Below, in pieces: positions 19,796 to 26,085 of a stretch of 64,000 bases of DNA (position 1 is the stretch's first letter; each line of letters starts with the position of its first letter). The stretch is from Haloglomus litoreum (GTDB lineage: Archaea; Halobacteriota; Halobacteria; Halobacteriales; Haloarculaceae), in NCBI RefSeq assembly GCF_029338515.1, contig NZ_CP119988.1:2046001-2110000 (forward strand), in the 5' to 3' direction. Below the pieces are notes generated by a model that worked only from the letters and a program-made list of their open reading frames with translations, did not search any database and had not been told where the DNA came from. The position numbers were made by a program, and so were the translations under genes.

Positions 19796-20587
19796 TCAGG
19801 ACGGGGTGCGGGCGGTCACCGTCACGTCCACTGCGACGGGCCGATCGAACGGTTCCGCAGTCCGGAGCGGCGAGAGCCGGAACAGGTGGGACCGACTGGT
19901 CCCACCGCCGGTCCCGGTCGCGAGATCGAACGTGCGGGTCGCGTCCTCGTAGAACTGGATCCGGCCGTCGTCCCGTGACCGGCGGCGCCCGCCGGGGTAG
20001 CCGACGACCAACTTCTCGCCGTCGTCGAGTCCGGTGACCGACACCTCGACTGCCGAGATGCCCGGGCCGGCAGCGACCGACCGCGTCCGTTCGATCTCTC
20101 GGTCGAACACGACTCCCGTCCGCTCGGGGCGCACCTGCTCGTCGCCCGCCCGGACCGCGAGTTCGGCCGGCCCACCGTCGGCCCGGAGCGCGAGATACGC
20201 TGCGCCGCGTTCGCGGGCGACCAGTCTGGCCGTCCGCGGCTGGTAGACGTGTCTGCGGGCAACCGGTGCCTTCGCGACGAGTTCCGCGACCAGCGACCCC
20301 GGAACCGACTGCGTCTCGACCGTCACCGGCTGCCCGGGGAAGAACGGGCCCCGGACGTACTCCTGGCCGTCGACGGTGCCCTCGTACAGCGTCCCCGTCG
20401 GCGGCTCGTCGGGCCGGTAGTCGAAGGTCGTCGCCGGAGGTGATTCGGTCTCGATATCGGGTCGACGACCGTCGATGACCGTCGGTTCCGATGCATCGCT
20501 CCCACACCCTGCTAGCCCGACCAGTGTCCCCACCCCGAGGAGGAACCGCCGTCGTCGCACGACCGTCACCTTGCCCGCCGGGGTCAT
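19796..20587 (-). CDS. Tat-exported lipoprotein of unknown function
   Basis: This 263-residue protein has the signal [20 protein letters not shown], a twin-arginine motif with a lipobox Cys near residue 27. The mature part is beta-rich and acidic, with no catalytic motif I recognise. ATG 20587 is chosen over the GTG at 20599. It lies head-to-head with the metzincin-like gene (spacer about 70 bases) and upstream of DUF420. An extracellular binding role is inferred from lipidation only. Confidence 0.78.
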
Positions 20588-20658
20588 CAACGTTACCACG
20601 GCCTCGCAACGCGAGCGCCTCCCGAGCGCTTATGCCTCCCGCGCCGGTCCATCCGGCC

Positions 20659-22587
20659 GTGACAGAGGGGGGTGCGAGGACTGATCAGGGTGTCCGTGTC
20701 GAGACGGCCTTCGACGCCGACCGGTTCGGGATGCCGGCGATAGCGGTCCAGCTCGCGTCCGAGCGGGACGACCCGGTCGCGGTCGCGCTGGTGCAGCCAC
20801 TGCCAGACGGCGTATCGGCCGCGGATGTCTCGGTTCCGGACGCGTACGTGGACGACTGGACGCTGTCCGGGGACCGGCTGGTCCTCCGGACGCGAGTCGA
20901 ACCCGGTGAGACGGTGACCTCCGCGTTCGGGCTGGATGTCCCGGCAGCCATGGCCAGGGGGGCGCTGTCGCCGGGGACCCTGGATATCGAACCGGTAGCG
21001 GGGACTCCGAACAGTGTCGCGACGAGTGGGTCCAAGGCGGCCGGAGCGACCAGTTCGAGGCCGCCGTCTTCGAGCGGCGACAACGACGGTGGTGGCTCAC
21101 GCTTTATCGGGCGCCGTGGCGTGGCCATCCTGCTTCTCCTGCTGCTGGTCGCGGCGGCGACACCGGCGCTGGTCTCTGCTGACGGCGACGACCTGACCGT
21201 GCTGACCGAGCTCACGGGCCCGACCGACCCCTTCGACGCGGACACGGACGACGACGGGCTGCCCGACGGAACCGAGCGGCCGCTGGGTGGCGACCCGACC
21301 GACCCGGACACGGACGGCGACGGGGTGCCCGACGGACGGGAACGTGCGCTCCGGAGCGACATCGCCGACCCGGATTCGGACGACGATGGGCTCTCCGACG
21401 CCCGCGAGGACGAACTCGGCTTCCCCATCAACCGCGCCGACGAGGACAACGACGGACTCGCGGACCCCCGCGAACTGGCCCTGGGGAGCAGCCCGTACCG
21501 GGCCGACACGGACGGCGACGGGCTGGAAGACCCGGAGGAAGCCCGCCTCGGGACCGACCCCACGGACCCTGACACGGACGAGGACGGACTCAGTGACCTG
21601 AACGAGGTCGACTTCGTGAAGTCCGACCCCACTGTCGCCGACACGGACGGCGACGGCGCGGACGACCTGCAGGAGGCACGACTGGACCTCCCCGCCAGGG
21701 TCCCCGACGCGGACGAGGACGGGGTCCCCGACGGCCGCGAACTGGCCACCGGGGGGAACCCGTTCCTGCTCGACACGGACGGCGACGGCGCGCTCGACGT
21801 GCTGGAGGCCGAGCAGGGGACGGACCCGGCGACGGTCGACACGGACGGCGACGGACTCCCGCGTGACCGCGAACTCGCCATCGGCGCGGACCCGACCAAC
21901 CCCGACACGGACGGTGACAACCTCCCGGACGGGATGGAGGCGAACGACGGGTTCGCCGGCGACCCCCTCCGCTCGGACGTCTTCGTCGAGATCGACTACA
22001 TGCGCGACCTCCGCCTCTCGGCGTCGGCCCGGGCCGACCTCCGCGAGTCGTTCGCGAGCGCGCCCGTCGAGAACCCGGACGGTTCGACCGGCGTGACGCT
22101 CCACCTCGTGCGGAGCGAGCAGGTTCCGACCGACGACGAGTTCACGCCGGAGGACCTCGGCGGGTACAGTCGGAACTACGGTGACAACGAGTGCCGTGGC
22201 TACCACTATGCGGTCCTCTCCGCGACGGGTGTAGCGAAGGAGTCGGGCGGACTCCGTGGCGTCGCCACGGGCGGCGCACTCGCCAGCAACGAGGACCCGT
22301 TCGTCTTCATGCACGAACTCGGTCACAACTTCGGCCTCACGCCGAAGATCCCCGGTGTCGACTCCCGGAGCATCCCGTTCAGCACCTACGAGAGCGTGAT
22401 GAACTACAACTCGCCGGAGCGCTACCTCGACTACTCCGACGGCGACAACGGTGAGCGGGATCACGACGACTGGCAGTACATCGCCACCGACCCGTGGACC
22501 CCCGCGGTGGAGCGGCCTGGCGGGCCGGTGGACGGCGACGACTGCGAGCGGTGGCTCGAGGGGCGCGCCGTGGTCGGCACGCCGTGA
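20659..22587 (+). CDS. Membrane-anchored protein with eleven calcium-type repeats and a metzincin-like HExxH domain
   Basis: The 642-residue product has four parts. Residues 1-150 form a cytosolic beta-rich domain ([23 protein letters not shown]). One membrane helix follows at about 153-174. Residues about 190-435 contain eleven D-x-D-x-D-G thrombospondin-type-3-like repeats. The C-terminal domain has HELGHNFG (H552, E553, H556, G559) and a Met-turn SVMNY with M581. In metzincins the third zinc ligand should be residue 562, but that residue is Pro, so the site is non-canonical. GTG 20659 is preferred because a TATA-like GCTTATGC lies about 23-30 bases upstream; ATG 20632 would fall inside it. 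The topology predicts a calcium-stiffened stalk presenting a protease-like head outside the cell. Confidence 0.85.
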
Positions 22588-24558: not shown

Positions 24559-25620
24559 CTACCGGCTCCCCCCTGGTGGGCCGTTCCCGTTCGGTCCAGG
24601 TGGGCCGTTTCCATTCAGTCCTGGCGGGCCGTTCCCGTCGGGGCCCGGTGGGCCGTTCCCATCAGGGCCCGGTGGGCCGTTTCCATCGGGTCCCGGTGGG
24701 CCGTCCCCGTCCGGTCCCCGTCGTTGGGCCCGTCCGTCATCATCGTCGTCGTCGTCCTCGCGGTCGTCATCATCGATGTCCCGCTCCGCGTCGTCGTCAT
24801 CATCACCGTCCCGCTCCGCGTCATCGGAATCGTCCGAGCCGTCGTCATCCCCGACCAGGGAGTCGCAGGTCCCGGCCAGGAGGAGTATCGGCCTGTCGAG
24901 ACGCAGGCTGTACCGCCTTACGCCCCCGTCCCGGGCGGAGAGTGCCTGCCAGTCCGTGACCGTCCCGGTGTAGTTGGTCGACAACCGCTCCGCGTCGTCG
25001 TTGAACGCGGGGTCGATGGTGAGTGCCGTCTCCTCGTCCAGGCCCCTGAACGCGCCACCGTCCGTCCCGGTGGCGGCCCAGGTCCAGGAGACCTGCGCGG
25101 TCGTCTCCCCCAGTCGCCACCGGTCGTAGTTCGACGACGCCCGCTCGCCCGTCTCCTGGTCGAAGTAGAGGTCGTCCCTGACGACCCACTCGCCGTCCGC
25201 CGGCAGCCCCTCGAACGTGAACGTCGCCGAGCCGCCGCCCCGATCCGACTCGTCGGCCTTGCCGTGGACGAGTACCAGGCTGAGCCCGTCCGGGCCCTCG
25301 TAGAGGAACAGCAGGCTCGTGTCGACCCGCTGGAGGGCGGTGGTCCCTCGGGAGGAGAAGTACGGCCCGCCGTCGTCGGAGGCACCGAACCCCTCGTACC
25401 TGTCCGAGGGCAGCTGGTAGTCGTAGAACGCCTCCACCGGCCGGTCCCCCCGCAACGGCCGGAGCGTTACACACCGGTCCCCCTGTGCGAGGACGAACGT
25501 CGGTCCCGCGGCCCCGGCGCCGACGATGCCGGTGCCGAGCGCGGCCCCGCCGACCATCCCGGGTATCGCGGTCAGGTAAGCGCGACGCGACAGCGCCATA
25601 CGGTCTCGCTGGGATGTCAT
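24559..25620 (-). CDS. Tat-exported protein with acidic tract and collagen-like GPPGPDGN repeats
   Basis: This 353-residue protein starts MTSQRDRMALSRRAYLTAIP, a twin-arginine signal, followed by a hydrophobic stretch without lipobox Cys. Residues about 30-250 form a globular domain I do not recognise. The next about 50 residues are almost all Asp, Glu, Ser and Arg. The last about 55 residues are repeats of GPPGPDGN (some units are GLNGN or GPNGN). It is not a strict Gly-X-Y collagen because every third triplet is short (GN). ATG 25620 is chosen because a TATA-like ATAACC region on the minus strand lies about 26-33 bases upstream. A surface or matrix role is plausible but inferred. Confidence 0.8.
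   Translation of the reverse strand: MTSQRDRMALSRRAYLTAIPGMVGGAALGTGIVGAGAAGPTFVLAQGDRCVTLRPLRGDRPVEAFYDYQLPSDRYEGFGASDDGGPYFSSRGTTALQRVDTSLLFLYEGPDGLSLVLVHGKADESDRGGGSATFTFEGLPADGEWVVRDDLYFDQETGERASSNYDRWRLGETTAQVSWTWAATGTDGGAFRGLDEETALTIDPAFNDDAERLSTNYTGTVTDWQALSARDGGVRRYSLRLDRPILLLAGTCDSLVGDDDGSDDSDDAERDGDDDDDAERDIDDDDREDDDDDDDGRAQRRGPDGDGPPGPDGNGPPGPDGNGPPGPDGNGPPGLNGNGPPGPNGNGPPGGSR
24571..24714 (-). repeat. 24-bp coding tandem repeat (GPPGPDGN units)
   Basis: About six near-identical 24-base units of the type GGGCCGTTCCCGTCGGGGCC (plus-strand view) encode the 8-residue repeat. Third-position differences between units (TTCCCGT, TTTCCAT, TTCCCAT) show they are not all recent copies. Unit number is a candidate for length variation between strains. 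Confidence 0.8.
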
Positions 25621-26085
25621 GGACCGGCGTACCATTCACTGCGGTTTGGTTATGTGCAGGGTATCGGATTCCCAACGTGACCCGGTGTCCCACCCCCCGG
25701 CGCTCCGGGCTGGTGGGGAGGTGCTAGGGCGGGCTTTCCGAGGTCGCCCGATGGGGCAGCCGCGCCGGATCCGCGTTGCAGTATGGAGACCCATGTTCGA
25801 TGCACAGGTACCATCCGTCCGATCCGGCCCGCGGACGCCCGGTAACGGCACGGTTCGTGGTGGTGTCGGCCGCGACGGCGCTCGTGGTGAGGCTGTCCAG
25901 GCCGGCAGTCCGCGGGTAACCGCCCCGTATCGACGGCCACGGCGCGTGAGGGGACCGAGGAATCCCCAAGGACCGACGGGATGCCCGAGAATCCCCCTGG
26001 GACCGTCCGGATACCGGGTGGATGCGGTCGTCGGACGGGTTCTGGGACCGATGAATTCCTACCCCCGTCGGCCCAACACCTGTCC
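25621..26085. other. Gene-poor interval
   Basis: Open frames here have Arg/Pro/His-rich products unlike haloarchaeal proteins and are rejected. One short frame, 25800-25919 (39 codons, begins MHRYHPSDPARGRP, with a hydrophobic run FVVVSAATALVV), could be a small protein but has no strong promoter. The left end contains the promoter of the collagen-like repeat protein. No RNA gene is recognised. Confidence 0.5.

Follow-up and report, generated by a model that had tools for sequence, protein, structure and literature searches.

Gene and Protein Organization

What does a haloarchaeal protein do with a C-terminus composed of an acidic tract and a collagen-like octapeptide repeat, and is this tail the defining part of the protein? 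The gene that raises the question lies in a stretch of 64,000 nucleotides of Haloglomus litoreum, referred to below as the window; it is part of a 4.70-Mb single-contig genome with approximately 70% G+C (65–73% in 2-kb blocks). The minus-strand open reading frame (24559–25620) encodes 353 aa, with the start codon ATG at 25620, further in-frame ATGs at 25635 and 25599, and the stop at 24559; a homologue, L061, is 65% identical over the core described below.

Residues 1–39 (25504–25620, minus strand) constitute a putative RR (Tat-type) signal region, in which a twin-arginine motif, SRRAYLTAI, at residues 11–19 is followed by a hydrophobic stretch, as recognized by eye and by pattern; this is consistent with the exported protein of the preliminary description. 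The core domain of about 212 residues (41–252; 24865–25500), delimited by family comparison and a core model, contains the only two cysteines of the protein, Cys50 and Cys252. The tail comprises 101 aa (253–353) and is divided into an acidic tract of 49 residues (253–301; 24718–24864), 59% of which are Asp or Glu (26 Asp and 3 Glu) with Arg and Ser in addition, and a Pro/Gly/Asp/Asn repeat region (302–353; 24562–24717) that includes five full 8-residue units (24580–24699). The combination of a poly-acid tract and an 8-residue repeat at the C-terminus, on which the preliminary description had centered, is thereby confirmed; what that description overlooked is the conserved core domain and the lack of a C-terminal anchor, since the D/G/P/N-rich tail has no hydrophobic segment and shows no PGF-CTERM features.

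An Uncatalogued Core Domain Family

By sequence comparison, the core represents an uncatalogued domain family and appears to be the constant part among the relatives. Of 392 genomes sampled from the order, 195 carry the core, as do 51 of 146 genomes of the window's own taxonomic family; among 294 genomes of the phylum, the make-up of which by order is unstated, the 21 carriers all belong to the window's order, and the named relatives from a protein search are haloarchaea. Scans of the window protein against Pfam and NCBIfam gave no match at E ≤ 1. Among 36 family members scanned at E ≤ 0.01, none matched NCBIfam and one matched a Pfam family (SBP56, E 0.0043), which is probably a stray hit. 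No description of the core family, the tail or the upstream element was found among the listed titles and abstract openings of open-licence papers.

We extracted 94 distinct core matches from fetched loci, a non-random sample of the family that combines the best matches with a set chosen for long open reading frames; dropping three incomplete matches leaves the 91 members counted below, and L107 was also dropped from the 90 members used for the tree and the cysteine counts. The window protein fits the conserved features of the alignment (QGD..C, HG/HD, W..DD, W.W, DGG, P.FN, W, and a terminal C) and matches the family profile, which contains the window sequence itself, at E 1.4e-81. Both core cysteines are present in 78 of the 90 members, both are absent from 10, and a single one occurs in 2, so that 88 of 90 have either both or neither; this covariation reads as a disulfide pattern and suggests a Cys50–Cys252 bond between the first and last strands.

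The core is predicted to be all-beta: a core-only model based on an alignment of 5 sequences is nearly all beta (pTM 0.76; mean pLDDT 73.8, with 45 of 216 residues below 50). Two models were compared by two Foldseek and two VIA searches, which returned weak beta-sandwich neighbors throughout: the closest Foldseek match has E 3.4e-3, none reaching E ≤ 0.001, and the best VIA match has Z 6.2 (rmsd 3.1, 104 aligned residues). When the PDB sequences were searched with a profile, no match went below E 0.055. Surface adhesins, pilins, and cohesins make up much of the weak fold-match list, with identities of 3–15% in the listed rows, and we claim no relationship to them.

Signal and Anchor Architectures

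The relatives fall into two architectures. A crude hydropathy test found a C-terminal hydrophobic segment in 22 of the 91 members, 13 of which also carry a PGF motif, and none in the other 69. In the members with a hydrophobic end the core mostly precedes long PKD/CARDB-like regions; some of these proteins are named by NCBI as PKD, CARDB or PGF-pre-PGF domain proteins, and others as hypothetical. An RRxx[LF] motif before the core was detected in 55 of 91 members, split into 54 of 69 anchorless members vs. 1 of the 22 with a hydrophobic end, and an acidic tail (at least 30 aa with at least 25% D+E) in 48 of the 69 anchorless ones; these counts include kin-related members and do not represent independent events. 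The window protein is assigned by its sequence to the anchorless RR-signal group. Several members, including L019, L032, L041, L029, and L047, have a second domain (V.PG..NPRS.G..PV...) between the core and the tail.

Octapeptide Array and Tail Exchange

The five full units of the array (GPPGPDGN three times, GPPGLNGN, and GPPGPNGN) share the consensus GPPG(P/L)(D/N)GN and are flanked by a degenerate GPDGD before and GPPGGSR after. The repeat is real: at an offset of eight, 29 of 32 positions match, whereas the last 50 residues, shuffled 10,000 times, never gave more than 19. TRF reports a 24-bp period with 6.0 copies (24575–24718); the preliminary description had counted about six near-identical units. 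All pairwise comparisons of the five units give 31 synonymous vs. 10 non-synonymous codon differences, and third positions account for 6 of the 8 variable sites. Thus, the DNA has drifted whereas the peptide was conserved, and the array is not a fresh expansion, which rules out a recent slippage product. The sister of the window protein on the core tree is L061 from genome G437, of the same family and another genus (65% core identity, support 100). The start of its tail, RGPDGDGPPGPDGNGPPGPDG, is identical to that of the window protein, and it has three units (GPPGPDGN, GPPGPDGD, and GPPGLSGD) vs. five; the repeat number therefore differs between lineages, in line with the variability that had been predicted from the DNA repeat.

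In other relatives the place of the octapeptide is taken by GPPDDA, GPPDHA, GPPDHAGEE, KGKGHE, GRGN, DDDHDD, poly-D, or a CHRPPGNPDNAHTIHVG module. Seven tail classes, defined by simple rules of our own and mapped on a quick tree of the 90 cores, change 25 times compared to 57 for shuffled labels, so that descent, too, groups the tails; for the GPP class 6 changes are required, at least 4 of which are forced by well-supported branches. The tail is reduced to 1–5 residues in L010, L013, L042, and L044, is missing in L052 and L054, and does not exceed 15 residues in seven complete anchorless members, so that it is dispensable for the domain in general. From these comparisons, the tail appears to be a variable, exchangeable module on a constant core.

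The repeat pattern was also sought outside the family. The spacing GPPG..G.GPPG occurs in 7 of 392 genomes, with scattered matches in the reversed control as well, and overlapping repeats of it (5 matches) are found, among the 392, only in the window's genome. The pattern GPPD[DH]AGPP occurs in 14 of 146 genomes and gives no match in the control; the core domain is absent from 14 distinct proteins carrying it, 10 of which have a hydrophobic segment within the first 90 residues of the open frame. DGDGPPGPDGDGPPG is present in L220, a protein whose hydrophobic segment lies close to the start. With comparable repeats found in proteins unrelated to the family, the tail seems to be a local instance of what acidic linkers in haloarchaea do more generally, and the repeat resembles a rapidly changing spacer more than a collagen.

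Some of the replacement tails have features of their own. In L007, L015, L016, and L018 the C-terminus is formed by a CHRPPGNPDNAHTIHVG...HGDSRGPC module, which we take to resemble one from bacterial secreted proteins. In one relative (L071 and L050; G247:C1:2666443), long KKRKK runs follow the GPPDHA repeats, and the tail contains 42% Lys+Arg, of a charge opposite to that of the other relatives' tails. In L066 (genome G435) the core is followed by DGNVEAGG-type repeats, which are presumably bactofilin-like.

How far does this turnover allow a function for the tail as such? A possible, though doubtful, answer is that it has none: low-complexity GC-rich acidic sequence would accrue by slippage at exported C-termini and linkers and be tolerated because it stays soluble, only the core being of consequence. 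The 25 class changes, the similar repeats in L220 and the 14 core-less proteins, and the members with no or almost no tail are as expected from such an account; the excess of synonymous differences in a preserved unit peptide, the RGPDGDGPPGPDGNGPPGPDG start in common with L061 despite a core identity of only 65%, and the recurrence of acidity in 48 of 69 anchorless members speak against it. We consider it quite unlikely that the tail is, instead of a passive spacer, a specific Ca2+/Mg2+-binding device cross-linking the protein to acidic polysaccharide or the S-layer, a role for which 26 Asp and 3 Glu in 49 residues and the poly-D or D/H tails of the relatives L045 and L059 could be adduced, but which sits poorly with the Lys/Arg-rich tails of L026 and L071. 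Finally, a kinked collagen-like triple helix trimerizing the protein is highly improbable and was rejected as the main explanation: GPPGPD does amount to two collagen-type triplets, and short Gly-X-Gly interruptions are tolerated in some collagens, but the Gly-X-Y run of each unit ends after at most two triplets in a Gly-Asn dyad (an irregularity already pointed out in the preliminary description), the full units of L061 cover only about 24 residues, no Pfam family, including any collagen-repeat model, matched at E ≤ 1, and the repeats of the relatives (GPPDDA, GPPDHA, and KGKGHE) lose the register of Gly at every third residue.

Genomic Context

The gene is accessory. A full-length query had no match in three congeneric genomes (two 99% and one 81% complete), and a core query recovered a weak relative in G392 (E 1.3e-10). 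The flanking genes, an acyl-CoA-dehydrogenase-like gene and a small hypothetical gene, are neighbors in the three congeners and in G437, the L061 gene of which lies on a contig other than that of the flanking pair, and the intergenic slot that holds the gene differs between the congeners. A search for exact repeats of 9–14 bases between the slot edges yielded one direct and one inverted 9-mer only; in the absence of marked flanking repeats, the insertion mechanism is not apparent. Phage cargo was considered and discarded, as there was no match in 50,697 phage records and none of four pattern stretches in viral contigs was confirmed. Relatives occur in 30 plasmid records, with identities below 60% among the 20 matches listed.

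Three further loci were observed. Beside the homologue in G437, a short RR-signal open reading frame (L213:4566–4898, minus strand) starts like the core (FSIVQDGQCLPLVPISGNE) and then meets a stop, and is perhaps a truncated core copy. Elsewhere in the genome of the window, a series of genes with RR signals (L197; C1:3692000–3702000) includes L005 (C1:3697519), which contains a diverged core copy; we presume both the series and L005 to be SipW/TasA-like. Within the window, a long plus-strand open reading frame (20491–22587) shows by eye many DxDxDG calcium-type repeats and a HELGH metalloprotease-like motif near its end.

An Upstream Element Shared by Family Members

A copy of an ATAACMAA element, ATAACAAA, precedes the gene. 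The window copy, ATAACCAA (25653–25646, minus strand), is located 33 nt before ATG 25620 and 18 nt before ATG 25635, with TA at 25663–25662, and is the only ATAACMAA in the window, where 0.03 are expected and 3 of 100 shuffles contained one. Of the 91 members, 30 have an exact ATAACAAA in the 330 nt before the core, and 53 have it when up to one mismatch is allowed; base shuffles average approximately 0.1 and 2.7, respectively, and the reverse strand, again with up to one mismatch, gives 10 of 91. A wider pattern places the element in 55 of 94 loci, in 29 of these 55 at 32–37 nt before the nearest in-frame ATG or GTG; counting from the element, position −10 is T in 67% and position −9 is A in 78%. 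The element differs from the standard haloarchaeal promoter motifs (TTWT, CGAAA, and WW) as quoted in an excerpt from PMC4983044.

To place the element genome-wide, we counted ATAACAAA followed by ATG at 20–34 nt against a reversed control. The four g33 genomes gave 27, 22, 26, and 23 vs. 4, 7, 3, and 3, respectively, and G078 gave 20 vs. 3; there is perhaps an excess in G158 as well (3 vs. 0). The window's own genome shows no clear excess by this count (3 vs. 2) or by an element search (7 vs. 9), so that a general signal in this genome is unsupported, and five other genomes of the window's family show none that is clear (37 vs. 27). Twenty hand-chosen downstream open reading frames, 19 from 50 loci and one from L139 (ATAACCAA, 80 nt), were scanned with Pfam; the set is non-random, and orthologues recur in it among related genomes. 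It includes three glycosyltransferases, an ATP-grasp type protein, two GNAT proteins, two phosphodiesterases, and an arylsulfotransferase, as well as FG-GAP, PKD, and DUF4397 proteins, two DUF7344 proteins, a TatD homologue, and a DUF378 protein, while four of the 20 have no Pfam family. In one element set, 7 of 30 loci have no open reading frame of 60 aa at the expected place. In the g33 genomes, the element was seen before glycosyltransferase, GNAT, phosphodiesterase, arylsulfotransferase, DUF7344, and surface-protein genes.

These patterns suggest shared control of envelope and polysaccharide genes by the element. A bolder proposal, which we consider unlikely as it stands, is an extracellular-matrix regulon in which ATAACAAA, about 33–37 nt before the start and with TA ten bases further 5′, would control both polysaccharide-assembly genes and secreted core-domain proteins, the exchangeable low-complexity tails placing the cores in the polysaccharide layer and evolving as interchangeable, convergent adapters.

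Proposed Function of the Protein

The account that we tentatively favor is that of a Tat-exported, unanchored surface or matrix protein of an uncatalogued family, with a beta-sandwich core, a disulfide, and a disordered polyanionic tail serving as a hydrated spacer; its surface or matrix role is the least certain part. Judging by the Tat-type signal and the model, the core would fold to a beta-sandwich in the cytoplasm and be exported in the folded state via Tat; the covarying cysteines suggest that it is closed by a disulfide from the first to the last strand. The exported protein would have no membrane anchor. The polyanionic stretch of the disordered tail would hold water and cations, the Pro/Gly/Asp/Asn repeat would act as an extended, non-sticky spacer, and the two together may maintain the solubility of the domain and retain it loosely in the cell-surface or polysaccharide layer. 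In the full-length model, which was built from five sequences and has an overall pLDDT of 59.7, and therefore gives weak support, the C-terminal ~100 residues may be disordered: no strand or helix is seen past residue 255, and pLDDT stays close to 50 over the acidic tract and is lower than 50 for most of the repeat.

This reading is favored by the occurrence of the same core at the front of long PKD/CARDB-type proteins with C-terminal anchors, and by an element that is common to glycan and surface genes in other genomes. Counted against it are the 15 of 69 anchorless members without RRxx[LF], the near-tailless members, the weak fold matches, and the lack of a clear element excess in the window's own genome and in five genomes of its family. 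We propose that the core family occurs in both secreted and surface proteins.

Comparison with Known Systems

In our judgment, the unnamed core domain, its exchangeable tails, and the upstream element are of more interest than the collagen angle. An odd repeat becomes a defined object, namely a domain family that roughly half of the genomes sampled from the order possess and for which Pfam and NCBIfam have no model; with its core constant and its tails exchanged, the family amounts to a natural experiment. Were the element a shared control signal, it would also give access to the switching of the extracellular matrix in haloarchaea.

Among known systems, the homologous ones are the haloarchaeal PKD/CARDB surface proteins with a C-terminal hydrophobic, often PGF-type, anchor, which have the same N-terminal core; they carry long repeat regions and the anchor, and 21 of 22 have no RRxx[LF], whereas the window protein combines an RR signal with a low-complexity tail and is anchorless. 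The SipW-type/TasA-like L005 (presumably camelysin-like) likewise holds a diverged copy of the window protein's core family; however, its signal and carrier differ, and Pfam detects no such domain in the window protein. The weak core-model matches to the beta-sandwiches of Ig-like/MSCRAMM-type adhesins, pilins, and cohesins (Z ≤ 6.2; identity 3–15% in the listed rows) carry no claim of relationship. Prokaryotic collagen-like proteins have a Gly/Pro-rich short-period repeat in common with the tail, but the window repeat differs in its 8-residue period, its Gly-Asn dyad, its runs of at most two triplets, and the lack of a Pfam match. The GPPD(D/H)AG-type linkers and tails of other haloarchaeal proteins combine a Pro/Gly/Asp repeat with adjacent acidic stretches, as is the case here; their units are mostly of 6 residues, and the 14 distinct carriers that were checked have no core domain.
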